Below are positions 5,944 to 15,442 of a stretch of 23,622 nucleotides of DNA, one piece after another. The stretch is from positions 1 through 23,622 of the IMG/VR virus record IMGVR_UViG_3300017967_008316; one strand, 5' to 3'. A model generated the notes under the pieces. It was not told where the DNA came from. It did no database searches and was given only the letters and a program-made list of their open reading frames with translations. Position 1 is the stretch's first letter. Every line of letters begins with the position of its first letter. The translations under genes and the position numbers were made by a program. The stretch comes from a virus.

Positions 5944-6969
5944 ATGACAGACTTTTTTGACTTACCCAATGACACATTTGTGAAAAGCTCAAGCTCTTCA
6001 CAAAAGAAATCAGACGCAAACATCTACAATCCTGATCCAAACGCACATAATGGATCTTACAAATCAGTATTTAGATTTATTCCTTATATCTCTGATAAAA
6101 CCAAGAGTAAATACACTAAATACGCAGCTAAATTCTGGAACCCTCTAACAAAGGAAGCTTTATATGTTGACTGTCCTTCGACAGTTGAAAAGCCTTCTAT
6201 CCTATGGGACTTAGAGACGGTTATCAGATCCTTTAAAAATGACGAACCGGAGTTACATGAGCAGCTGTCTTCTTGTTTTTCAAGATGGCATACTCACCAT
6301 TCTCCAGTTTATATTAAAAAGGATCCACAGAGACCCGAGCTAGAAGGAACTGTAAAGATTTTTAAGTATTCAGCTCAGATCAATAATATGATCGAGGGTC
6401 AAATCAACCCAGAAGAAGATGAATTACTGGACTCAGTATCTTCGGTTAATCCATTCCACTTGCTAGAAGGTAAAGACTTTCTATGTGTAGTTGGTAAGAA
6501 AACCAAGCAGTACAGAGACTGGAGTAAATCTAAATTCATGGATGAGGTTACTCCGTTCATGTTTAAGATTGGAGATAAGAGTGTCGTCGTTGAAAACAGC
6601 GAGAAGTCAGCTAAGCTCGTACAAGAGTTTCTTAAAAAGAATACTCCGGATATTGATCAATATCTATATCAAGAGTGGACCGAAGAAACTTATCAAAAAG
6701 TAGCTGATGCGATCGCATCCTTAGTTTCTAATCCTACCATCTTAAAGATGTTGATTGACAAGACAAGAGATGATAAGATGAAACAGCTTCTAACGGATAA
6801 AATGTCTGGAAGCACCGTATCTTCATCTACATCTAAGTCTAAAGCAAGCGAATTAGACGACGATATTAACTTTGAATCTGATCCGTTTGTTGAAGAAAAA
6901 ACTGAGACAGTAGCAGAAACTACTTCGTCAGAAGCTGACGATTATGATTCTCTATTCTCAGATCTGTAA
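5944..6969 (+). CDS. 32: single-stranded DNA-binding protein (T4 gp32 type)
   Basis: 341 residues (T4 gp32 has 301). It coats single-stranded DNA at the fork and coordinates polymerase, helicase and recombinase. Matching landmarks are SVFRFIPY near residue 40, KDPQRPELEGTVKIFKY (T4: KDPAAPENEGKVFKY), NPFHLLEGKDFLCVV, and an acidic C-terminal tail ending DDYDSLFSDL, the usual protein-interaction tip. Oddity: in the zinc region CPSTVEKPSILWDL lines up residue for residue with T4 CSSTHGDYDSCPVC; the first Cys is kept but both Cys of CPVC are Leu here, so the T4 zinc site is probably lost. Its place before the RNase H gene matches the T4 order 32-59-33-dsbA-rnh. Confidence 0.93.
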   Translation: MTDFFDLPNDTFVKSSSSSQKKSDANIYNPDPNAHNGSYKSVFRFIPYISDKTKSKYTKYAAKFWNPLTKEALYVDCPSTVEKPSILWDLETVIRSFKNDEPELHEQLSSCFSRWHTHHSPVYIKKDPQRPELEGTVKIFKYSAQINNMIEGQINPEEDELLDSVSSVNPFHLLEGKDFLCVVGKKTKQYRDWSKSKFMDEVTPFMFKIGDKSVVVENSEKSAKLVQEFLKKNTPDIDQYLYQEWTEETYQKVADAIASLVSNPTILKMLIDKTRDDKMKQLLTDKMSGSTVSSSTSKSKASELDDDINFESDPFVEEKTETVAETTSSEADDYDSLFSDL

Positions 6970-7287: not shown

Positions 7288-8426
7288 TGGACTTTGTAAT
7301 AGACGGAAATGCCTATCTGAATGTAGCAATTAGCGTTACTAAATCTATAGCTTATAGAGATAAATCTATAGGCTCTAAATATTACGTTAATGATATATTC
7401 AATGATGGCAAGTCTATTCTGAAAGAAGAAGTAAAGATACAATTTAGAAACTTCTGTCTTAATTATATGAATTCACTAATTGCACCGGTTGGGAATAAAC
7501 TCAACCGTGTGCATTTAGTATTCGATTCAAGAAGCTGGAGAAAAAATTATATCAGAAAATTCTTTAATGATTCTAACTTTGAAACAAGTGTAGCACCTAC
7601 TGCATTTAAGTACAAAGGAAATAGAAAAAAGGATGACAACATTCATCTTTTCTTCGATTACTTTCAAAGTGAGATTGCTCCCCACCTAATGAAGGAAGCA
7701 GGGGTTAACTATTACAGAATAGATTCTACGGAAGGAGATGATATCATTGCCTACCTATGTGAGGTAATAGAAGGTGATATCATGGTGTACACAGTAGACA
7801 GCGATCTTAAGCAATTAACATATTCTCCTAAGAATAACATAATTGTTATATACCCGAAGCAAATGTCTAAGCATAAGAAATTATGTGTTCCTCAGGAGTT
7901 TAATCCTAGTCACGCTGAAGACGAAACAGATAACTTCTTTTCTCTTACCGAGTCTCATATTGTTACTCCAGCAATTGACAAAACAATTAATCTTCTTAAA
8001 AGCAGAGACTACGTTGAATACAAAGTAGATCCAGTTTTGGAGGTATTTACTAAAATATTTAGAGGTGATAAGAAGGATAACATTCCAAAAATGGATAAGA
8101 TGACTCCTACTAAAACTTCTAAAATGATAGATGCTATACGCAGTAATTACGGTAACTATTCCCTAAATTTGCTGGATGATCTAGACGAAAAATTCATAGA
8201 CTTTATAGTAGAAAACATAAGTATACTAAATAAAGTCAACGATATTGATAAGCTAAAGGACGTGAGAAAACACTTTATGTTCAACGCTAGAATTATCAGA
8301 TTATCGTCTAAGCTGTTTCCAAAGGAGGTCAGAGTTAGCCTAAGTAGTGGTATTGACTCCAAAAAGTTTATGAGTTTCAATTCTAAGAAATTCAATCACA
8401 TTAAAAATAACCCATCATTAATATGA
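7287..8426 (+). CDS. rnh: T4-type RNase H, 5'-3' exonuclease of the FEN-1 family
   Basis: 379 residues from the ATG at 7287, which overlaps the upstream stop as TGATG; an in-frame TTG at 7284 is less likely. It removes RNA primers and adjacent DNA from lagging-strand fragments. Acidic metal-site residues of the family are seen: D6 (VIDGNAY), D80 (LVFDSRSWR), E149/D151/D152 (EGDDIIAY), D171/D173 (VDSDLKQL), and GDKKDNIP (260-267) in the helix-hairpin-helix region. It is longer than T4 RNase H (305). The extra length includes a stretch at about 195-250 between the last active-site acids and the HhH. Its position after gp32 matches T4. Confidence 0.9.
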   Translation: MDFVIDGNAYLNVAISVTKSIAYRDKSIGSKYYVNDIFNDGKSILKEEVKIQFRNFCLNYMNSLIAPVGNKLNRVHLVFDSRSWRKNYIRKFFNDSNFETSVAPTAFKYKGNRKKDDNIHLFFDYFQSEIAPHLMKEAGVNYYRIDSTEGDDIIAYLCEVIEGDIMVYTVDSDLKQLTYSPKNNIIVIYPKQMSKHKKLCVPQEFNPSHAEDETDNFFSLTESHIVTPAIDKTINLLKSRDYVEYKVDPVLEVFTKIFRGDKKDNIPKMDKMTPTKTSKMIDAIRSNYGNYSLNLLDDLDEKFIDFIVENISILNKVNDIDKLKDVRKHFMFNARIIRLSSKLFPKEVRVSLSSGIDSKKFMSFNSKKFNHIKNNPSLI

Positions 8427-8722: not shown

Positions 8723-8742
8723 ACTTCCTAAATCAATTAAAT

Positions 8743-8773
8743 AAAAAGCGACTCAATACTGGGTCGCTTTTTT
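8743..8773 (+). terminator. Rho-independent terminator after the GroES gene
   Basis: Stem GCGACTC (8748-8754) / GGGTCGC (8761-8767), with one T:G pair and a 6-nt loop, is flanked by an A-run and followed by T6. It separates the replication block from the rhodopsin operon. Confidence 0.9.
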
Positions 8774-8779
8774 AGTATA
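8773..8779 (+). promoter_or_regulatory. TAGTATA box at the end of the terminator
   Basis: The TAGTATA heptamer overlaps the end of the terminator T-run. It is 53 bases from the ATG at 8832, so it does not show the 24-nt spacing of the other copies; it may still serve the rhodopsin operon. Confidence 0.3.
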
Positions 8780-8804
8780 CGAGAAATTAACCTGCGTAAT
8801 ATGA

Positions 8805-8820
8805 AATAAATAAAATAAAT
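8805..8820 (+). promoter_or_regulatory. late-promoter-like box before the rhodopsin operon
   Basis: The run contains ATAAATAAAATAAA (8806-8819), a 14-mer that recurs exactly at 13656-13669. It begins 26 bases before the ATG at 8832, similar to the 25-28 bases seen for the ATAAATA boxes at 4331 and in front of the tail sheath. It suggests late transcription of the operon. Confidence 0.45.
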
Positions 8821-8831
8821 CCCCGAGGGTG

Positions 8832-9371
8832 ATGATAGCTAGAAGATTAAGAGAAATATTGACGTATTATGACTCTGAGCCAACTGAAGTTTTGCAAGGA
8901 CTGATATGGCTAGTGTTTTTTCCGATAGTTCTCTTGAGCGAGATGACTGGCCCAGTTACTTATTTAGTCGCTCCGTCGATGGTTATCGGATGGCTGGCAA
9001 TATATGCAGCCGCTAAGTCCTGCATAAAGACTAGACTATATACTTCGTTCGCGTATGGATTACTTTCTCTAATTGCTGCTTATGTTTTTATAAGTAATGG
9101 AGGTCTTAAAGTACATGCTACAAATTGGGGATGGGTTGTGATATGTATTAGCGCAATTTCTAACATAAAAAGAGTAAGACAGAAATACCTAAAGGAAATG
9201 AGCCCATCTGTTATTGACCGCGTCTTAGAAGAAGACGAAGAATCTGAAGTTGAGCAAACGATAGAAAGAATGTATCGAGATGATATGCTTAAGAAGATAG
9301 AGGAACTGCAGCGAGAAAACATAGAACTTAGATTCAAGATCGCAGATCTTCAAACAAAAAACGAAGAATGA
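8832..9371 (+). CDS. four-helix membrane protein with a cytoplasmic coiled coil (first gene of the rhodopsin operon)
   Basis: 179 residues from the ATG at 8832 (an in-frame GTG lies one codon upstream). Four hydrophobic segments lie at about 18-36, 42-62, 70-89 and 98-113, followed by a charged region (KRVRQKYLKE) and an acidic-basic heptad-like stretch at about 135-178 ending in KIEELQRENIELRFKI, a likely coiled coil. By the positive-inside rule the tail is cytoplasmic. The family is not recognised. Its last codons overlap the kinase start (ATGA). It may be a partner, scaffold or output adaptor of the sensor pair. A holin is a less attractive alternative because of the four helices and the long coiled coil. 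Confidence 0.75.
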   Translation: MIARRLREILTYYDSEPTEVLQGLIWLVFFPIVLLSEMTGPVTYLVAPSMVIGWLAIYAAAKSCIKTRLYTSFAYGLLSLIAAYVFISNGGLKVHATNWGWVVICISAISNIKRVRQKYLKEMSPSVIDRVLEEDEESEVEQTIERMYRDDMLKKIEELQRENIELRFKIADLQTKNEE

Positions 9372-10645
9372 TGTTAAAATTATTTGCAGGTATTTCTATC
9401 AGATCTAAAATAGCGCTATTTATGGCGTCCTCAATAATGTTAGGTTTTCTCATAGTAAAGAGCCTTTTATTGTTCGGGTTCTGTAACTACTCTACTCTCA
9501 CAAATTGGTATGAGTGGTTCTCAGTAATCTTCTTCATGCCTCCATTTTTTACTCTATTCTTGGAGATATTATACCTGAAGGCTCATATTAAACGTGAATT
9601 TAATCAAAAGAATCACGAGCTCATGGAGCTTGATAAATTCATTAATGAGGCCGCTCTTATATCTAAGACTGACTCCAAGGGAAGAATAGTGTTTGTAAAT
9701 AAGAGATTTGAAGAAGTATCCAAATGGAAAAAAAGAGAGATACTCGGAAAAGACCATAGAGTATTAAACTCAGGCACTCATCCAAGTAAATTTTGGATGG
9801 ATATGTATAAAACAACAGTCAAGCAAAAAAAGATTTGGAACTCAATTGTCACCAACGTGGCAAAAGATGGATCCTTATATTATGTCGATAGTTATATAAA
9901 GGCAGAATTTGATCCTAAGGGTGAAAATATTGTTGGCTTTACGTCAATTAGATATGATGTAACTCAAGTGGTAGACTCTATGAATGAAATAAACAAGAAA
10001 AATACCTATCTTGAACATGCTGCTAAGATTCTTAGACACGATATGCATAGTGGAATTAACACATATATACCAAGAGGATTAAGTTCCCTAAAGAGAAGAT
10101 TAACCGAAGAAAGAATAGAAGAATTAAAGATATCTGCTCCTCTTAGGATGATTGAAGAAGGTCTGAAACATACTCAAAGGGTTTACGTAGGCGTCAAAGA
10201 ATTCACCAACCTAGTTAAGAAGGATACTCAGCTTGATATGGAAATAATTAATCCGAGCAAAGCTTTAAAGGATTACCTATCTTCTACTTCATATTCAAAG
10301 CAAGTAAGAATAGATGAAATACCCGAGATAGAAGCAAACGAGGCTCTTTTTTGCACCGCAGTTGATAATCTAATTAGAAACGGATTAAAGTATAATGACA
10401 GTGAATCAAAGAAAGTTCTAATTTATCAAGAAGAAGACTGCATAGTAGTCCAAGATAATGGGAGAGGAATTACACAAGAGGACTTTGAAAAGCTATCACA
10501 ACCTTATACTAGAAAGAAAAATCAAAAAGAATCCGGCTCAGGTTTAGGACTAAATATATGTGTTGCAATTCTTCAAGAGCATGGATTTTCTATATGGGTA
10601 GACGAACAGCCGGTTGGGACTAAATTAAAAATCAAAGTAAAATGA
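9368..10645 (+). CDS. membrane PAS-domain sensor histidine kinase
   Basis: 425 residues. Two membrane helices at about 14-38 and 48-70 have only a very short outer loop, so there is no extracellular sensor domain. A linker helix follows, then a PAS domain at about 90-200 (ISKTDSKGRIVFVNKRFEEVS ... NGTxxYV-type core, SIRYDVTQ). The phosphoacceptor is probably H224 in LRHDMHSGIN. The ATPase domain shows the N box (DNLIRNGLKYND, 333-344), G1 (DNGRGI, 363-368), an F-box-like QPYTRK and G2 (GSGLGL, 390-395), so it appears catalytically intact. No response regulator is in the window. The gene overlaps both neighbours by ATGA, including the rhodopsin gene. The two-helix topology matches rhodopsin transducers (Htr type). 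I infer that light sensed by the rhodopsin controls this kinase. Confidence 0.92.
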   Translation: MMLKLFAGISIRSKIALFMASSIMLGFLIVKSLLLFGFCNYSTLTNWYEWFSVIFFMPPFFTLFLEILYLKAHIKREFNQKNHELMELDKFINEAALISKTDSKGRIVFVNKRFEEVSKWKKREILGKDHRVLNSGTHPSKFWMDMYKTTVKQKKIWNSIVTNVAKDGSLYYVDSYIKAEFDPKGENIVGFTSIRYDVTQVVDSMNEINKKNTYLEHAAKILRHDMHSGINTYIPRGLSSLKRRLTEERIEELKISAPLRMIEEGLKHTQRVYVGVKEFTNLVKKDTQLDMEIINPSKALKDYLSSTSYSKQVRIDEIPEIEANEALFCTAVDNLIRNGLKYNDSESKKVLIYQEEDCIVVQDNGRGITQEDFEKLSQPYTRKKNQKESGSGLGLNICVAILQEHGFSIWVDEQPVGTKLKIKVK

Positions 10646-11268
10646 GCACTCTATTGATCATAACATCTATAATATTCGCAACAAGCGCAGGATTCTTTTA
10701 TCTAAAGAAGGAATCATCGTTAATGAACAAGATATCGATACTGATACTTTTAATTGCTTCGTCTAATTACCTGTTAATGTCTCAATTTGCTGACTATGAA
10801 AATATTAGAGCGCTTAGATATACTGATTGGTTCCTGACCGTTCCACTTCTAGTATATCAAATGTGCTGTCTATTCATGAAGAAACCAGCATCAATTAAAA
10901 CATGTGGAGTAAGCTTATTAATGATACTCTTAATGTTGGTCTGTGGTCTCTCAGGTGAGCTTGGAATATCCAAAGAGATTCAAATGTTAGATATAAAGCC
11001 TCATGAATGGAAGCCCTTAATGGGAATGCTAGGGATTGGTTTTAGCTTAAATGCGTTTCTGTTTTTAACTGGAGAAATGAAGGAAGCAAACGATATTAAA
11101 CTATTCGTAATAATAATAAGCCTCTGGCAATTTTATCCTATTGTGTATTTCTTAGCTGATAGCCAATATACAATAATAGGCTATTCAATAGCTGATGTCA
11201 TTGCTAAAGTTGGAGGAGCATTCGTTATGGCTTACTTCTGTGACCAATGTCACATGTCCAGTAAATAA
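10642..11268 (+). CDS. microbial (type I) rhodopsin, probable light sensor
   Basis: 208 residues, seven hydrophobic helices (about 3-20, 30-50, 59-80, 86-104, 124-146, 152-172, 176-200). Helix C reads RYTDWFLTVPLLVYQ: R59, D62, T66 and Q73 match bacteriorhodopsin R82, D85, T89 and D96, giving a D-T-Q motif; L70 is at the proteorhodopsin colour-tuning site, where Leu means green. Helix F has W162-x-x-Y165-P166-x-x-Y169. Helix G has D185-x-x-x-K189 (ADVIAKVGG), the counter-ion and retinal Schiff-base lysine. GLSGELG (102-108) resembles GYMGEAG of proteorhodopsin. It is short (bacteriorhodopsin and proteorhodopsin have about 250 or more) because the loops are short; no core helix is missing. No carboxylate donor is present, which fits sensing. 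It overlaps the kinase gene (ATGA). Retinal must come from the host, as no synthesis gene is seen here. Confidence 0.93.
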   Translation: MSTLLIITSIIFATSAGFFYLKKESSLMNKISILILLIASSNYLLMSQFADYENIRALRYTDWFLTVPLLVYQMCCLFMKKPASIKTCGVSLLMILLMLVCGLSGELGISKEIQMLDIKPHEWKPLMGMLGIGFSLNAFLFLTGEMKEANDIKLFVIIISLWQFYPIVYFLADSQYTIIGYSIADVIAKVGGAFVMAYFCDQCHMSSK

Positions 11269-11301
11269 TTTCACTCAGGCCTTTAAATTTAGAAAACCTT
11301 T

Positions 11302-11332
11302 TAGTATAGTCTAGTATAAATAATCATACTAG
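11302..11332 (+). promoter_or_regulatory. double TAGTATA and TATAAATA promoter-like region with inverted repeat before the structured RNA
   Basis: TAGTATA occurs at 11302-11308 and 11312-11318; the second copy runs into TATAAATA (11315-11322), an exact match to the T4 late consensus. The sequence CTAGTAT (11311-11317) and its inverted copy ATACTAG (11326-11332) flank 8 nt, so the site could also bind a dimeric regulator. It lies just upstream of the boxA-like element and the RNA. Confidence 0.55.
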
Positions 11333-11338
11333 AACAAA

Positions 11339-11358
11339 AAGTTCTTTGACTTATTGGT
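11339..11358 (+). promoter_or_regulatory. boxA-like antitermination element (copy 1)
   Basis: AAGTTCTTTGAC followed by TTATTGGT. The same sequence with one change recurs at 12053-12072. From memory, GTTCTTTGACATATTGG-like sequence stands before rRNA operons of Bacteroidota, and it resembles the E. coli boxA TGCTCTTTAACA, bound by NusB-S10 to allow transcription of untranslated RNA. Here it starts the long non-coding region. Confidence 0.55.
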
Positions 11359-11359
11359 G

Positions 11360-11780
11360 AAAGGCGCTTGAAACCGACGGGTGAACGGCGTTGATGTGTG
11401 CCAGAATAATAGGTAAGCAAAGCCTATAACGGACCGAATTAGATCGATGGATCGCAGAAAGGTGATGAGCCTCCCTGGTTAAATGACCAGGCTGAATCAG
11501 ATAACTACTGGAATTCGGGTCTCCGGCAAAAAACTACAAATCTGATTTGTAAATCTCTTATGGGTAAAATAACAATTCCCATCTAGTGACCGAATAATCT
11601 TTTCGTTTGTGAGATAAGGTGATTCTAAAGATCGTAGTAATTAAATCAATGATTTGAGTGAGCGCAAACTCAAATTAAGATTTATTTCGACAGAAGTTTT
11701 AGAAGGCAGAGATAAAAAAGCAAGCGGCCGGGCTGAAGGTAATCAGTAATCCTTCTGCATCTACTTTCACTTTAAATAAG
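11360..11780 (+). ncRNA. large structured non-coding RNA of unknown family
   Basis: No credible ORF, but many complementary segments. A long-range helix pairs 11363-11370 (GGCGCTTG) with 11721-11729 (CAAGCGGCC, one bulged G), closing a domain of about 370 nt. Inside, 11434-11440 (CCGAATT) pairs with 11512-11518 (AATTCGG), enclosing a hairpin CCTGG/CCAGG (11474-11478 / 11487-11491). Further hairpins are ATGGG/CCCAT (11560-11582 region), ATTTGAGT/ACTCAAAT (about 11652-11675) and GAAGG/CCTTC (11735-11756 region). A promoter-like box and a boxA-like element lie upstream and tRNA genes downstream. Large ornate RNAs (GOLLD, ROOL) are found next to phage tRNA genes, but I cannot match this one to them; it shows no clear RNase P, tmRNA or intron signature. 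The exact ends are uncertain. Confidence 0.6.
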
Positions 11781-11790
11781 ATCAAAACTT

Positions 11791-11797
11791 TAGTATA
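11791..11797 (+). promoter_or_regulatory. TAGTATA promoter-like box before the 28-codon ORF
   Basis: TAGTATA ends 24 nt before the ATG at 11821, the same distance as at two other genes in the window. Confidence 0.5.
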
Positions 11798-11820
11798 GTT
11801 AAACAGAAGAAATTAAACAG

Positions 11821-11907
11821 ATGAATTACACTGTCTCAAATATCACATCAACAAGGTTAGGTATATTAAGACTAATAGGAACATCTCCTACTCAGGATCC
11901 AGTGTAA
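11821..11907 (+). CDS. 28-residue small ORF with its own promoter box and terminator
   Basis: ATG to TAA encodes MNYTVSNITSTRLGILRL followed by IGTSPTQDPV. It is unlike anything I recognise. The case for a real gene is its setting: a TAGTATA box exactly 24 nt upstream, an A-rich leader (GAAGAAATTAAACAG) of the style used by other starts here, and a strong terminator 24 nt downstream. The middle is hydrophobic and the ends polar, too short for a clear membrane helix. It could instead be a leader peptide or a short regulatory RNA. Confidence 0.4.
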   Translation: MNYTVSNITSTRLGILRLIGTSPTQDPV

Positions 11908-11930
11908 GATTATCTAAACGTAGAAAATTT

Positions 11931-11964
11931 AAATCTGGATCCAAAAGATCCAGATTTTTTTTTG
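11931..11964 (+). terminator. Rho-independent terminator before the first tRNA cluster
   Basis: A perfect 11-bp stem AAATCTGGATC (11931-11941) / GATCCAGATTT (11947-11957) with loop CAAAA runs into a T-tract. Confidence 0.92.
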
Positions 11965-11974
11965 ACATATATTT

Positions 11975-12049
11975 GCTTCCATAGCTCAACTTGGCTAGAG
12001 CACCTGATTTGTACTCAGGGGGTTGTGGGTTCGATTCCTACTGGAAGCT
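11975..12049 (+). tRNA. tRNA-Thr (anticodon UGU)
   Basis: Acceptor GCTTCCA / TGGAAGC, D arm AGCTC...GAGC, anticodon stem CCTGA/TCAGG with loop TTTGTAC (anticodon TGT, reads ACA), T arm with GGTTCGATTCC. The 3' CCA is not encoded. First of a run of four tRNA genes. Confidence 0.95.
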
Positions 12050-12052
12050 CAA

Positions 12053-12072
12053 AGAAGTTCTTTGACGTATTG
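12053..12072 (+). promoter_or_regulatory. boxA-like antitermination element (copy 2)
   Basis: AAGTTCTTTGAC followed by GTATTGGT sits between tRNA-Thr and tRNA-Gly. It differs from the copy at 11339-11358 at one position. Two copies in untranslated RNA units support an antitermination role. Confidence 0.55.
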
Positions 12073-12080
12073 GTTTAATT

Positions 12081-12153
12081 GCGGAAGTAGCTCAGTTGGT
12101 AGAGCATTAGCCTTCCAAGCTAAGGGTCGCGGGTTCGAATCCCGTCTTCCGCT
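12081..12153 (+). tRNA. tRNA-Gly (anticodon UCC)
   Basis: Acceptor GCGGAAG / CTTCCGC, D arm GCTC...GAGC, anticodon stem TTAGC/GCTAA with loop CTTCCAA (anticodon TCC, reads GGA), T arm GCGGG TTCGAAT CCCGT. CCA is not encoded. Confidence 0.95.
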
Positions 12154-12159
12154 CTGATT

Positions 12160-12241
12160 GCCGAAGTGGTGGAATTGGTAGACACGCTGGTCTTAGGAAC
12201 CAGTGCTTCACAGCTTGTGGGTTCGAGCCCCACCTTCGGTA
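12160..12241 (+). tRNA. tRNA-Leu (anticodon UAG)
   Basis: Acceptor GCCGAAG / CTTCGGT (first pair G-U), typical Leu D arm (GGTGGAATTGGTAGACAC), anticodon stem CTGGT/ACCAG with loop CTTAGGA (TAG, reads CUA), a long variable arm and T arm GTGGG TTCGAGC CCCAC. 82 nt. Confidence 0.95.
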
Positions 12242-12248
12242 CTACATT

Positions 12249-12334
12249 GCCGCCCTGGTGAAATTGGTAGACACGAGGGACTTAAAATCCCTTGAGCAGT
12301 AATGCTCGTGCCGGTTCGATTCCGGCGGGCGGTA
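12249..12334 (+). tRNA. tRNA-Leu (anticodon UAA)
   Basis: Acceptor GCCGCCC / GGGCGGT, anticodon stem AGGGA/TCCCT with loop CTTAAAA (TAA, reads UUA), a long variable arm (TGAGCAGTAATGCTCG) and T arm GCCGG TTCGATT CCGGC. 86 nt, 7 nt after the other Leu tRNA. Confidence 0.95.
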
Positions 12335-12347
12335 CTAAACTTACGCA

Positions 12348-12713
12348 ATGATTAAAATTAAAATATCAACTAGAATAGTATTCTTAATAGGTAATTATGC
12401 GATTAAAATGCCTATTGATCTTAGAGGATATTATCAAGGCCTCAACGAAAAGTATCTGTATAATAAATACAGGAATTCAGGTCTTTTAGCAAAATTGATT
12501 TGGTCAAAACTAGGAATAGTAGTCCAACAGAGGGTTGACCCTATAAAATCTGATAAGATAAATCCGATCCTGGTTCTTAAAATCAAGAGTGAAATACCTG
12601 AGCTTAATATTTCTAACTGCGATCTACATAACCCAGTTAATTGGGGAATCTATAAGAATCAAACAGTTTTACTTGACTATGGAATCACTGAGAAAGTAAG
12701 CATGATGTATTAA
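12348..12713 (+). CDS. minimal protein-kinase-like protein
   Basis: 121 residues. The N-terminus STRIVFLIGNYAIKMP places K20 in an AIK-type strand like the ATP-binding lysine of kinases. Near the C-terminus CDLHNPVNWGI (91-101) resembles the kinase or aminoglycoside-phosphotransferase catalytic loop (D-x-H-x-x-N), and LLDYG (108-112) resembles the metal-binding DFG. The spacing between these is short and most of the C-lobe is missing, so this is either a degenerate kinase fold or a compact phage version; activity is uncertain. It follows the Leu tRNA after 13 nt and meets the minus-strand gene tail to tail, with the two stops overlapping. Confidence 0.55.
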   Translation: MIKIKISTRIVFLIGNYAIKMPIDLRGYYQGLNEKYLYNKYRNSGLLAKLIWSKLGIVVQQRVDPIKSDKINPILVLKIKSEIPELNISNCDLHNPVNWGIYKNQTVLLDYGITEKVSMMY

Positions 12714-13183
12714 ATTGCCTTTCTAAATGAAAGTTGAACCATCTCTTTGTCAGAATTAGTGAATGATGTTTCTAAAGATAGTCCCTCTTTAATCTGAAGA
12801 TGTGCATAAATTGACGAAGGAGTTTTATAGAAACCCCCTTTAGGAAGTGGACCTAGCATCCAAAACGGAGCAATCCCTATCCTTAATCTTGGATTTATCT
12901 GGTACTCGATTTGAGCAAGTCTAATCCTTATTTGATTCTGCATAGAATAAGTAGAATCATCTTCACCAATATAAGATTGATCGCCGAATAAATTAACCAA
13001 TTCTAATCTTGGTCCGAATATCCATTTCCCATAATTAAATGATTTTTCTACACTTATAGATAAGGAATTGTAATAGGATATGTTAGCCGACATTTCAACT
13101 TGCCAGCTTTCTAAAGTATCTTTTGATTGTCCTACAGAACTAGTAGATAAAAACAACAAAAAGCAAAATATTAAGTTTCTCAT
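12710..13183 (-). CDS. small exported outer-membrane beta-barrel-like protein
   Basis: 157 residues on the minus strand, opposite to the surrounding plus-strand genes. Residues 1-19 (MRNLIFCFLLFLSTSSVGQ) are a typical Bacteroidota signal peptide. The rest alternates polar and hydrophobic residues in strand-sized pieces (WQVEMSANISYY, SLSISVEKSF, WIFGPRLELVNLF, QIRIRLAQIEYQI, RLRIGIAPFWML, SIYAHLQIKEG, LSLETSFTN, MVQLSFRKAI), as in 8-stranded outer-membrane barrels. The position between tRNA blocks and the opposite strand mark it as a cargo gene. It may remodel the host surface, for instance to block superinfection; this is inferred. Confidence 0.65.
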   Translation of the reverse strand: MRNLIFCFLLFLSTSSVGQSKDTLESWQVEMSANISYYNSLSISVEKSFNYGKWIFGPRLELVNLFGDQSYIGEDDSTYSMQNQIRIRLAQIEYQINPRLRIGIAPFWMLGPLPKGGFYKTPSSIYAHLQIKEGLSLETSFTNSDKEMVQLSFRKAI

Positions 13184-13256
13184 ATGGCTTCTTTATTTTA
13201 TCTATATGAAGATATCTGAACATCATTGATATATCAAGTAATATAAATGTCACAAT

Positions 13257-13330
13257 GCACCCATAGCTCAGCTGGATAGAGCATCTGCCTTCTAAGCAGA
13301 CGGTCTCAGGTTCGAATCCTGATGGGTGTA
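13257..13330 (+). tRNA. tRNA-Arg (anticodon UCU)
   Basis: Acceptor GCACCCA / TGGGTGT, D arm AGCTC...GAGC, anticodon stem TCTGC/GCAGA with loop CTTCTAA (TCT, reads AGA, the dominant Arg codon in these genes), T arm TCAGG TTCGAAT CCTGA. Confidence 0.95.
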
Positions 13331-13336
13331 CTAAAC

Positions 13337-13401
13337 GATCAAGCGTTCCAGCCGATTACGGTAAAACGAAGGTCTAAGGGAACTAGTACCTTGGCTTGAT
13401 C
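13337..13401 (+). ncRNA. 65-nt pseudoknot-like RNA element between tRNA genes
   Basis: An 8-bp outer stem GATCAAGC (13337-13344) / GCTTGATC (13394-13401) closes the element. Inside, GTTCC (13345-13349) can pair with GGAAC (13379-13383) and AAGGT (13369-13373) with ACCTT (13388-13392). The two helices interleave, giving an H-type pseudoknot or two alternative folds. A short CCG/CGG hairpin lies between. There is no T-loop or anticodon arm, so it is not a tRNA. It lies 6 nt after tRNA-Arg and 4 nt before tRNA-Met in what is probably one transcript. Function unknown; a processing element, small RNA or ribozyme are all possible. Confidence 0.5.
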
Positions 13402-13405
13402 CCAC

Positions 13406-13479
13406 GCTCTCTTAGCTCAGTTGGTCAGAGCACCCGACTCATAATCGGTAGGTCGTAGGTTCAAGCCCTACAGGGAGCA
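13406..13479 (+). tRNA. tRNA-Met (anticodon CAU; tRNA-Ile2 possible)
   Basis: Acceptor GCTCTCT / AGGGAGC (one T:G pair), D arm AGCTC...GAGC, anticodon loop CTCATAA (CAT), T arm GTAGG TTCAAGC CCTAC. The 27-43 pair is a C-U mismatch. CAU is also used by lysidine-modified tRNA-Ile2; with a separate Ile(UAU) gene nearby, Met is more likely. Confidence 0.9.
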
Positions 13480-13509
13480 CTAATTAAACCAATACACTTT
13501 TTCGCATTC

Positions 13510-13537
13510 TGCACCTCTACGGATTTTTATAGGTGCA
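13510..13537 (+). other. hairpin between tRNA-Met and tRNA-Ile
   Basis: TGCACCT (13510-13516) pairs perfectly with AGGTGCA (13531-13537) around a 14-nt loop. It lacks a T-run, so a processing or spacer hairpin is more likely than a terminator. Confidence 0.4.
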
Positions 13538-13544
13538 TCAACAT

Positions 13545-13618
13545 GGGGGCGTAGCTCAGTTGGTTAGAGCAGGATGCTTATATCATCAAGGTCACAGGTT
13601 CAAATCCTGTCGTCCCTA
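13545..13618 (+). tRNA. tRNA-Ile (anticodon UAU)
   Basis: Acceptor GGGGGCG / CGTCCCT (two G-U pairs), D arm GCTC...GAGC, anticodon loop CTTATAT (TAT, reads AUA), T arm ACAGG TTCAAAT CCTGT. The 27-43 pair is a G-A mismatch. Last tRNA of the array. Confidence 0.92.
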
Positions 13619-13623
13619 CTTAG

Positions 13624-13650
13624 GGGCAGGAGAAAGGCTCCTGCCCTTTT
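13624..13650 (+). terminator. Rho-independent terminator after the tRNA array
   Basis: A 9-bp stem GGGCAGGAG (13624-13632) / CTCCTGCCC (13638-13646), loop AAAGG, followed by TTTT. Confidence 0.92.
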
Positions 13651-13654
13651 CCGC

Positions 13655-13669
13655 TATAAATAAAATAAA
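13655..13669 (+). promoter_or_regulatory. TATAAATA late-promoter-like box
   Basis: An exact TATAAATA at 13655-13662 continues into AATAAA; ATAAATAAAATAAA is shared with the box before the rhodopsin operon. It lies directly after a terminator and 14 nt before the ATG at 13676, so the leader would be very short. Confidence 0.5.
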
Positions 13670-13675
13670 GACATA

Positions 13676-14128
13676 ATGTATAGGGTATTTAAGAAGCTAA
13701 ATGGTACCGCAGTAGATATCGTGGATCACACCATCTCAGTTCTTAAAGAATGTCCATATACTGAAATTCATATCGGTAGTGACTCACAGAATCACTCTGA
13801 AGTCACTAAATATAGTACTGTTATAGCATATAGGTTTGGAAACAGAGGGGTGCACTACGTTGTACATAAGATGTCAACTCCTAAGATCACTGATAAATGG
13901 ACTAGATTATGGAAAGAAGCAGTAATGTCAATTGAAACAGCTGAAATACTGACCTCAAAAATAAAGGTTCAAGTTCAAATAGATTTAGATTATAACTCAG
14001 ATAAGAGATATTTTAGTAGCAGGCTAGTTCAGGCAACTTCAGGTTGGGCAAATAGTCTGGGATACAAAGTTAATATTAAACCTGATAATCAGATCGCTAC
14101 CAGAGCAGCAGATTACCACTGTAGGTAA
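13676..14128 (+). CDS. RNase H-fold protein of the DUF458/YkuK type
   Basis: 150 residues. EIHIGSDSQNHSEVTKYSTVIAY (30-52) is the first strand pair of an RNase H-like fold with the acidic residue D36, as in the YkuK/DUF458 family (typical IxIGTDSQ). Further acids sit in a strand (VQIDLDYNS, D103/D105) and near the C-terminus (ATRAADYHCR, D146), giving a plausible metal-binding set. The family is uncharacterised; nuclease activity is a prediction. The gene begins a new transcription unit between a terminator and a TATAAATA box upstream and the methyltransferase-like gene downstream. Confidence 0.7.
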   Translation: MYRVFKKLNGTAVDIVDHTISVLKECPYTEIHIGSDSQNHSEVTKYSTVIAYRFGNRGVHYVVHKMSTPKITDKWTRLWKEAVMSIETAEILTSKIKVQVQIDLDYNSDKRYFSSRLVQATSGWANSLGYKVNIKPDNQIATRAADYHCR

Positions 14129-14153
14129 ATACTATAAACCTACACCACTTATT

Positions 14154-14160
14154 TAGTATA
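14154..14160 (+). promoter_or_regulatory. TAGTATA box before the methyltransferase-like gene
   Basis: TAGTATA ends only 9 nt before the ATG at 14169, unlike the 24-nt spacing elsewhere. If it is a -10 box the mRNA would be nearly leaderless. Confidence 0.35.
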
Positions 14161-14168
14161 ATTTATAT

Positions 14169-14759
14169 ATGCCTAGATTCGTAAAAGAAAATATTGAATT
14201 TAAAGGAATAGACTTTCTTCCAGAATATTGGAAGCCATACTTTGTTCTTTCGGAAATCGGCAAAACATACACAGTCATTAGAGACACCGAAGTTCCTATT
14301 TTGAATAACACAAACAATTCGTGCAAAAGCTGTGGAAATAGAATTCCAGACCTAATAATGTCTGATACTGAATATGAATACCATACAAATCAACCATTCT
14401 TTGATTTATGCTTGGAATACACTCACCCTAGAGTATTATCAGTTGGATACGGAATAGGATTGATTATTCCCGAAATGGAACGTCAAGGAGTAGATCTAAC
14501 TATACTTGAAAAATATCAAGAAATTCTAGATCTTGACGAAAATATTGATCAAGTAAAGCAGTCACATACAATAATTATTGGCGATATTAAAAGCTTTGAT
14601 CTCTCTCAGTTAGATCCGTTTGATGTCATATTTTTAGACATAACTGAAAATCTACCCTGGGCAGAAGTTCAGGCTTTAAAAAGTAATTTAAAACCGGGTG
14701 GTCAATTAAAACTATGGTCACATGATAAAAAGATTAATGACCGTAAAAAAAATACTTAA
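14169..14759 (+). CDS. Rossmann-fold SAM-dependent methyltransferase-like protein
   Basis: 196 residues. RVLSVGYGIGLIIPEM (88-103) is a glycine-rich SAM-binding motif I. E114 (LTILEKY) is at the ribose-binding position, GDI (138-140) at the adenine-binding loop, and VIFLDI (153-158) and LKPGGQLKLWSH (174-185) are the usual following strands. The layout resembles spermidine-synthase-like and small methyltransferases. The N-terminal 80 residues form a separate piece with a CKSCGN CxxC (52-57). The substrate cannot be read from the sequence. The stop codon is directly followed by the start of the nuclease gene (TAAATG). Confidence 0.7.
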   Translation: MPRFVKENIEFKGIDFLPEYWKPYFVLSEIGKTYTVIRDTEVPILNNTNNSCKSCGNRIPDLIMSDTEYEYHTNQPFFDLCLEYTHPRVLSVGYGIGLIIPEMERQGVDLTILEKYQEILDLDENIDQVKQSHTIIIGDIKSFDLSQLDPFDVIFLDITENLPWAEVQALKSNLKPGGQLKLWSHDKKINDRKKNT

Positions 14760-15368
14760 ATGAGAAAAATAAAAATGATTAATCGACTTACTTTAATTCT
14801 TGCACTATTCCTAAGTGTAGGATTTGCTAATGCACAAACCTCTGCTGATACTCTTGAAACGGATATATTCAAAGTGGTTTATTCTGAATTTCACGAACAG
14901 CCTCTTTTCCTATCGTATACCGTCGATTGTCCAACTGGAACGGCATCTAGATCGGGAATGAATTTCTACAAAGTAGAAGGAATTCATACCTCCGATAACG
15001 ATGACTATAAGGACAATCCATATGATAAGGGACATCTTGCTCCAGCTGCAGCCTTTAATTGTGATAGAGACGTTTTAAAAATGACGTTTTCATATTTAAA
15101 CTGTGCTCTCCAGCATGAGGGATTAAATAGAGGACCTTGGAAAGAACTAGAAGGATTTGAAAGAGATCTAGCTAAAGTATTCGACCAAGTATCAGTTGAA
15201 ATTACAGTTAATTTTACTGAAGAGTTACATAGAGTTCCCGGAGGAGCTGCTATTCCGGATTCCTTCACTAAGATCATAAGATTTGACGGAAAAGCAATTG
15301 CTTTTGTTTTTCCAAATGAAGATGTATCTGGTGAAGATTGGTCCAAGTTTAGAGTGCTTGATTGGTAA
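14760..15368 (+). CDS. exported DNA/RNA non-specific endonuclease (NUC1/Serratia nuclease family)
   Basis: 202 residues. A signal peptide spans about residues 1-26 (MINRLTLILALFLSVGFANAQ); an internal ATG at 14775 would give a more standard signal length. YDKGHLAPA (88-96) is the family DRGH motif with Lys for Arg; H92 would be the general base. N114, N123 (LNRGPWKELE) and E129 are candidates for metal and phosphate contacts. It would cut DNA and RNA in the periplasm or outside the cell. An exported nuclease in a phage could attack incoming DNA of rivals, or scavenge or thin DNA at lysis; the choice is inference. A bidirectional terminator separates it from the convergent sheath gene. Confidence 0.88.
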   Translation: MRKIKMINRLTLILALFLSVGFANAQTSADTLETDIFKVVYSEFHEQPLFLSYTVDCPTGTASRSGMNFYKVEGIHTSDNDDYKDNPYDKGHLAPAAAFNCDRDVLKMTFSYLNCALQHEGLNRGPWKELEGFERDLAKVFDQVSVEITVNFTEELHRVPGGAAIPDSFTKIIRFDGKAIAFVFPNEDVSGEDWSKFRVLDW

Positions 15369-15393
15369 TCTAAATCAAATAATCTTAAAATAA

Positions 15394-15420
15394 AAAAGGG
15401 AAGCAATTAGCTTCCCTTTT
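15394..15420. terminator. bidirectional terminator between convergent genes
   Basis: A perfect 11-bp stem AAAAGGGAAGC / GCTTCCCTTTT with loop AATTA. A-run and T-run on either side make it work in both directions, for the nuclease gene (+) and the tail-sheath gene (-). Confidence 0.93.
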
Positions 15421-15442
15421 CTGTATCAATAAGCTTCTAGGT

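Follow-up and report, generated by a model that had tools for sequence, protein, structure and literature searches.

The operon at positions 8,832 to 11,268 of this viral DNA raises the question of why a bacteriophage would encode a rhodopsin together with a histidine kinase, and whether the two act as one light-sensing device. The window, that is, the whole stretch of 23,622 nucleotides that was analysed, carries three genes here on the plus strand. The first, coil1 (8,832 to 9,371, with an alternative GTG start possible at 8,829), encodes 179 amino acids with about four membrane helices followed by a C-terminal coiled coil. The second (9,368 to 10,645) encodes a histidine kinase of 425 amino acids with two membrane helices, a PAS domain and a catalytic ATPase domain. 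The third (10,642 to 11,268) encodes a type-1 rhodopsin of 208 amino acids with a D-T-Q motif (D62, T66, Q73) and the retinal lysine K189. An ATGA overlap occurs at both joints, and a sequence-only reading that had described the block as a membrane coiled-coil protein, a PAS kinase and a rhodopsin joined in this way was confirmed from the open reading frames and the sequence. In the gap that separates the operon from the groES-like gene, a hairpin with a 10-nt loop followed by a T-run (8,743 to 8,772, plus strand) can be read directly from the sequence; its loop exceeds the limits of the motif scan, which does not list it. It likely separates transcription of the two, and the operon is therefore probably an independent unit. 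A scan for sigma-70-type promoters in the window gave no more sites than shuffled sequence.

The operon is flanked on both sides by phage genes, including those for RNR, a gp32-like SSB, an RNase H-type exonuclease, the groES-like protein, tail sheath, DNA polymerase and UvsX. Because the annotated phages nearest to the window in tail sheath or UvsX are Prevotella Lak and Flavobacterium MaF61, both phages of Bacteroidota, together with huge phages, a Bacteroidota host is likely. An assembly accident was ruled out, as other metagenomes also yielded contigs with the block (L002, as well as L003 and L165, both incomplete).

Judged by family match, key residues and predicted fold, the third protein is a type-1 (microbial) rhodopsin. 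It matches PF01036 with 56.4 bits (cut-off 24.6), the sole rhodopsin family returned, which leaves it outside the heliorhodopsin family. The residues R59, D62, W63, T66, Q73, W162, Y165, P166, D185 and K189 are all present. Specifically, the helix G lysine (K189, codon at 11,206 to 11,208) and the counterion aspartates D62 and D185 are kept. The AlphaFold2 model has a seven-helix fold (pLDDT 87.6), and Foldseek aligned it to solved microbial rhodopsins with TM scores of about 0.65 to 0.79, OLPVRII being among the closest folds. In sequence, the matches are solved proteorhodopsins and OLPVRII, and the closest families are the proteorhodopsin and xanthorhodopsin pumps. No cellular donor can be named because all cellular matches had at most 34% identity, in a scan limited by short patterns. 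The gene for retinal synthesis, Blh (PF15461), was found in none of seven records, which are mostly short fragments, in a search to which only one control genome responded, and that below the cut-off; retinal would thus have to be supplied by the host. A dN/dS of 0.07 between the rhodopsins of L097 and L098 (dS about 1.3) indicates purifying selection.

The affinity to pumps and the retention of D62 and D185 are what would be expected if the rhodopsin were a light-driven, or slow, proton pump that sustains host membrane energy during infection, with the kinase co-transcribed but not signalled. A pump-type proteorhodopsin does occur on another phage contig. However, the helix C motif is D-T-Q in all four phage lineages, against the pump motif D-T-E in every one of the 56 cellular relatives sampled, so that in the phages the donor position holds glutamine rather than glutamate. 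With this helix C carboxylate donor absent (Q73), membership among the proteorhodopsin-type pumps was rejected. Helix B (predicted at residues 27 to 46) offers no substitute, as it lacks aspartate and glutamate and no conserved acidic column is found there. In addition, the D-T-Q rhodopsin always lies in a signalling operon, while the pump-type phage rhodopsin is found in a record without the kinase. A pump is therefore an unlikely reading. Established chemistry of rhodopsins predicts a slower photocycle when the proton donor is missing, and a slow photocycle would suit a sensor.

If the rhodopsin serves the kinase, the two should be found together in other phages. Searches with the rhodopsin only, in which the kinase was not used as a query, recovered six further phage contigs: L002, L003, the near-identical pair L095 and L096, the 297-kb contig L097, and L098. 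The kinase is in the same operon as the rhodopsin in all seven contigs, the window included, which represent four lineages. The sequence-only reading had proposed conservation of the block in related phages as a check, and had named rhodopsins at sites unlinked to the kinase as evidence against it; for the D-T-Q type, the linkage holds throughout and no unlinked site was found among the seven. Coil1 is seen in six of them; the remaining contig, L003, is truncated within the kinase gene and does not reach the coil1 position. The order is coil1, kinase, rhodopsin in the window type, the first two of which are repeated on the incomplete contig L165, and kinase, receiver, coil1, rhodopsin, coil2 in L095 to L098. 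Across the rhodopsin-bearing contigs, the rhodopsin gene overlaps its neighbours or sits within about 10 bases of them.

A different phage rhodopsin, of the pump type (D-T-E), occurs without a kinase. One such gene is a complete proteorhodopsin at positions 6,857 to 7,570 of L214 (IMGVR_UViG_3300046323_000337), a phage-like contig that also carries thymidylate synthase, lysozyme-like and NAMPT-like genes and has no kinase match in the record. Among the other pattern matches, L086 was set aside as a pump-type phage rhodopsin and L091 as a D-T-G rhodopsin in a record that looks bacterial, while in L087 and L093 the matched site contains no reading frame for a rhodopsin.

The setting of the block in the window also bears on its history. 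It lies in a variable region of 6.7 kb between the groES-like and tail sheath genes (8,723 to 15,442), which also contains seven tRNAs and an ORF-free stretch. No kinase or rhodopsin match occurs anywhere on the contigs of 12 backbone relatives of the window phage. In most of these relatives (e.g., L198, L199, L201 and L205), the groES-like gene lies close to the tail sheath gene, with neither kinase nor rhodopsin between them. Based on this comparison, the block came into the window phage as one unit. The ORF-free stretch itself (11,335 to 11,960, plus strand, about 626 nt) folds better than its shuffles (z -3.4) and closes with a strong hairpin terminator (11,931 to 11,957); it has no Rfam match. 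Near it, at 11,315, lies TATAAATA, a motif no commoner than chance in the window.

Such a setting, a variable region that also contains tRNA genes, together with the scattered occurrence of the rhodopsin on the kinase tree, is what would be seen if the rhodopsin were a passenger gene with no functional connection to the kinase. Against this stand the linkage in seven of seven contigs and in two gene orders, the overlapping reading frames and the purifying selection. We give the passenger reading the least credence of those considered.

The kinase has the catalytic boxes and the ATPase domain of a sensor histidine kinase. The PAS and HATPase_c domains (PF02518, 64.8 bits) are matched in Pfam. 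The H (H224, at 10,037 to 10,039), N, G1, F and G2 boxes could all be located, as had been proposed from the sequence. Pfam returned no HisKA match, but nearly every homologue compared retains the motif RHDMHSGIN. Hydropathy peaks fall at residues 17 to 35 and 52 to 70, about 16 residues apart. This two-helix topology had been taken as a sign of coupling to a rhodopsin, a point that does not stand. The kinase is one member of a large family found in phages, IMG/VR alone giving at least 595 relatives, and homologues without a rhodopsin share the same helices. The rhodopsin is absent from 78 of 80 kinase-bearing records, and PF01036 is matched in just the two contigs of the window type. The two-helix kinase is thus not specific to rhodopsins, its topology is no evidence for light coupling, and light is not the general signal of the family.

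In the commonest arrangements, the kinase is followed by a receiver and coil2 (54 loci) or by a receiver, coil1 and coil2 (23 loci), counts that include related, non-independent loci. The receiver, a protein of about 145 amino acids with one REC domain, is encoded beside the kinase in most relatives, including L095 to L098. No receiver gene was found in the window contig or in the L002 and L003 fragments, and no coil2 in the window fragment. The sequence-only reading had the kinase phosphorylate a host regulator. A host regulator need not be assumed, since the relatives encode a receiver-only response regulator of their own alongside the kinase. From gene order, the phage receiver protein of the relatives is the likelier target.

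Several variations on the operon were noted within the family. Kinases of about 590 amino acids in L005, L010, L017 and many other loci contain about 170 additional residues between the membrane helices and the PAS domain, forming a domain that by eye is GAF-like. A patatin-like phospholipase gene, its family also assigned by eye, follows the kinase directly and precedes the receiver in L018, L019 and L063. At 7,600 to 7,800 of L097, a protein of 62 to 66 amino acids shows two hydrophobic stretches by eye; it has homologues in 12 other loci, mostly 0 to 4 bases upstream of the kinase, and no family match.

Coil1 is the constant companion of the rhodopsin. Its family comprises 32 phage loci, the window copy being 32 to 44% identical to the others compared, and a kinase or receiver of the phage two-component family adjoins it in all 32. 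No convincing match to its fold was found among solved or viral structures, and the window copy is too divergent to be placed in a coil1 tree. In a quick tree of the kinases, the window kinase falls outside the single, fully supported group made up by the kinases of the coil1 clade, and the rhodopsin appears at three places. Coil1 and the rhodopsin therefore accompany two branches of this kinase family, and they look like an input module joined to each, by a history in which repeated gain and repeated loss are indistinguishable.

The step of infection that such a module might control is suggested by the genes around it. Across the kinase family, the operon neighbours include amidase endolysins with a peptidoglycan-binding domain, phage lysozymes, M15 peptidases, a PHROG endolysin family and holins. 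A lysis gene lies within 3.5 kb of the operon in 45 of 72 non-redundant loci, a count made with profiles built from the operon neighbours themselves, whose family assignments were confirmed. The matches are concentrated near the operon, with 71 at 0 to 2 kb versus 5 at 2 to 10 kb. Because of the origin of the profiles, a position-blind Pfam test was added, using PF01510 (amidase) and PF00959 (lysozyme) on 35 records. It gave 26 matches above the cut-off, 7 of them within 2 kb where about 1.2 were expected (P 0.0003, which overstates independence since the loci are related). In L095, an amidase gene ends 2 bases before the kinase; the operons of the window, L097 and L098 have no lysis gene beside them. 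Judged from these neighbourhoods, the link to lysis is real for much of the kinase family, and for most of the rhodopsin-bearing phages it is only inferred.

The lysis genes that flank many of the kinase operons would also fit a rhodopsin acting on the membrane directly, as a light-gated channel or depolariser that, with coil1 and nearby holins, triggers or delays lysis while the kinase is not involved. The closest folds include OLPVRII, cation channels make up group 1 of the viral rhodopsins (PMC7659345), and coil1 is weakly like small phage membrane proteins. These coil1 matches are weak, however (best E 0.019), the helix-B glutamate of the giant-virus proteins is absent, and none of the contigs found has the D-T-Q rhodopsin without the kinase. 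Such a direct action on the membrane is very improbable.

The reading that best accounts for these observations, with a probability of roughly two in three, is that the block is a phage light-input module, made of the rhodopsin and coil1, added to a phage two-component system that is often located in the lysis region. We infer from the sequences that the kinase is under light control. In the mechanism proposed, the rhodopsin would bind retinal made by the host and lie in the host membrane beside coil1 and the helices of the kinase. Its presumably slow photocycle, in keeping with the missing carboxylate donor, would alter autophosphorylation of the kinase. The phosphate would then pass to the phage receiver protein, which in the window phage may be encoded elsewhere in the genome or may have been lost. 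The receiver, with the membrane coiled-coil proteins, would act on a late step of infection, most likely the timing of lysis, because many relatives sit among endolysin and holin genes. A fuller version of this scheme is possible, although less likely than not. In it, phages of aquatic bacteria, probably Bacteroidota, would time lysis by a light-sensing two-component system in which the rhodopsin and coil1 gate the kinase and the receiver and coiled-coil proteins control the holin/endolysin step, coupling bursts to daylight.

The presence of a rhodopsin in a viral signal-relay gene cluster suggests that this group of uncultured bacterial viruses senses sunlight during infection. The proposal that such an operon is undescribed agrees with the literature searched: no description of a bacteriophage rhodopsin was found in the open-access PMC papers searched, nor was any paper on phage two-component systems. 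At the limits used, the rhodopsin, kinase, receiver, coil1 and coil2 had no match in 50,697 phage records, and no isolate phage carrying any part of the system was found. If light does control the kinase, the operon would provide a direct molecular route by which phages sense sunlight, and it would be relevant to the daily rhythm of marine infections. Additionally, the phage two-component family, with its IMG/VR matches often in the lysis region, is a testable candidate for signal-controlled lysis.

Comparison with known systems places the block apart from each of them. The A215T change is what makes the haloarchaeal sensory rhodopsins signal. In the window rhodopsin, A188 rather than a threonine precedes K189, so a change of the A215T type is absent and membership in the sensory rhodopsin/Htr group was rejected. 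Haloarchaeal sensory rhodopsins I and II resemble the window in having a separate two-helix membrane partner, Htr, encoded in a neighbouring gene (PMC6798134). In contrast, Htr belongs to the methyl-accepting chemotaxis proteins and relies on a separate kinase, whereas the partner in the window is itself a PAS histidine kinase. It was rejected as an Htr, since it has PAS and HATPase_c domains and no chemotaxis-protein family was returned by Pfam. The heliorhodopsins encoded near PAS/HisKA/HATPase histidine kinases, for which a light switch has been proposed (PMC8612252), are alike in pairing a rhodopsin with a PAS histidine kinase. They belong to another family and to cellular genomes, while the window encodes a Bac_rhodopsin (PF01036) in a phage, in one operon with the kinase.

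The rhodopsins of giant viruses, such as OLPVR1 and OLPVRII, have been described as channels or pumps (PMC6821725, PMC7659345, PMC3500653). Like the window protein they are virus-encoded, short and type-1, and OLPVRII is a top match in both fold and sequence. However, they come from viruses of eukaryotes and carry a glutamate in helix B (E42 of OLPVRII). The phage rhodopsins are without this glutamate, which excludes them from groups 1 and 2, and they lie in a two-component operon. The closest sequence families, green proteorhodopsin and xanthorhodopsin, are D-T-E pumps, as opposed to the D-T-Q phage group, whose members are shorter (192 to 208 amino acids). Finally, in the algal histidine-kinase rhodopsins, or enzymerhodopsins, a rhodopsin controls a histidine kinase (PMC6798134), as it is presumed to do in the window. 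While the algal enzymerhodopsins are single fused proteins, the phage rhodopsin and kinase are separate proteins encoded in one operon.
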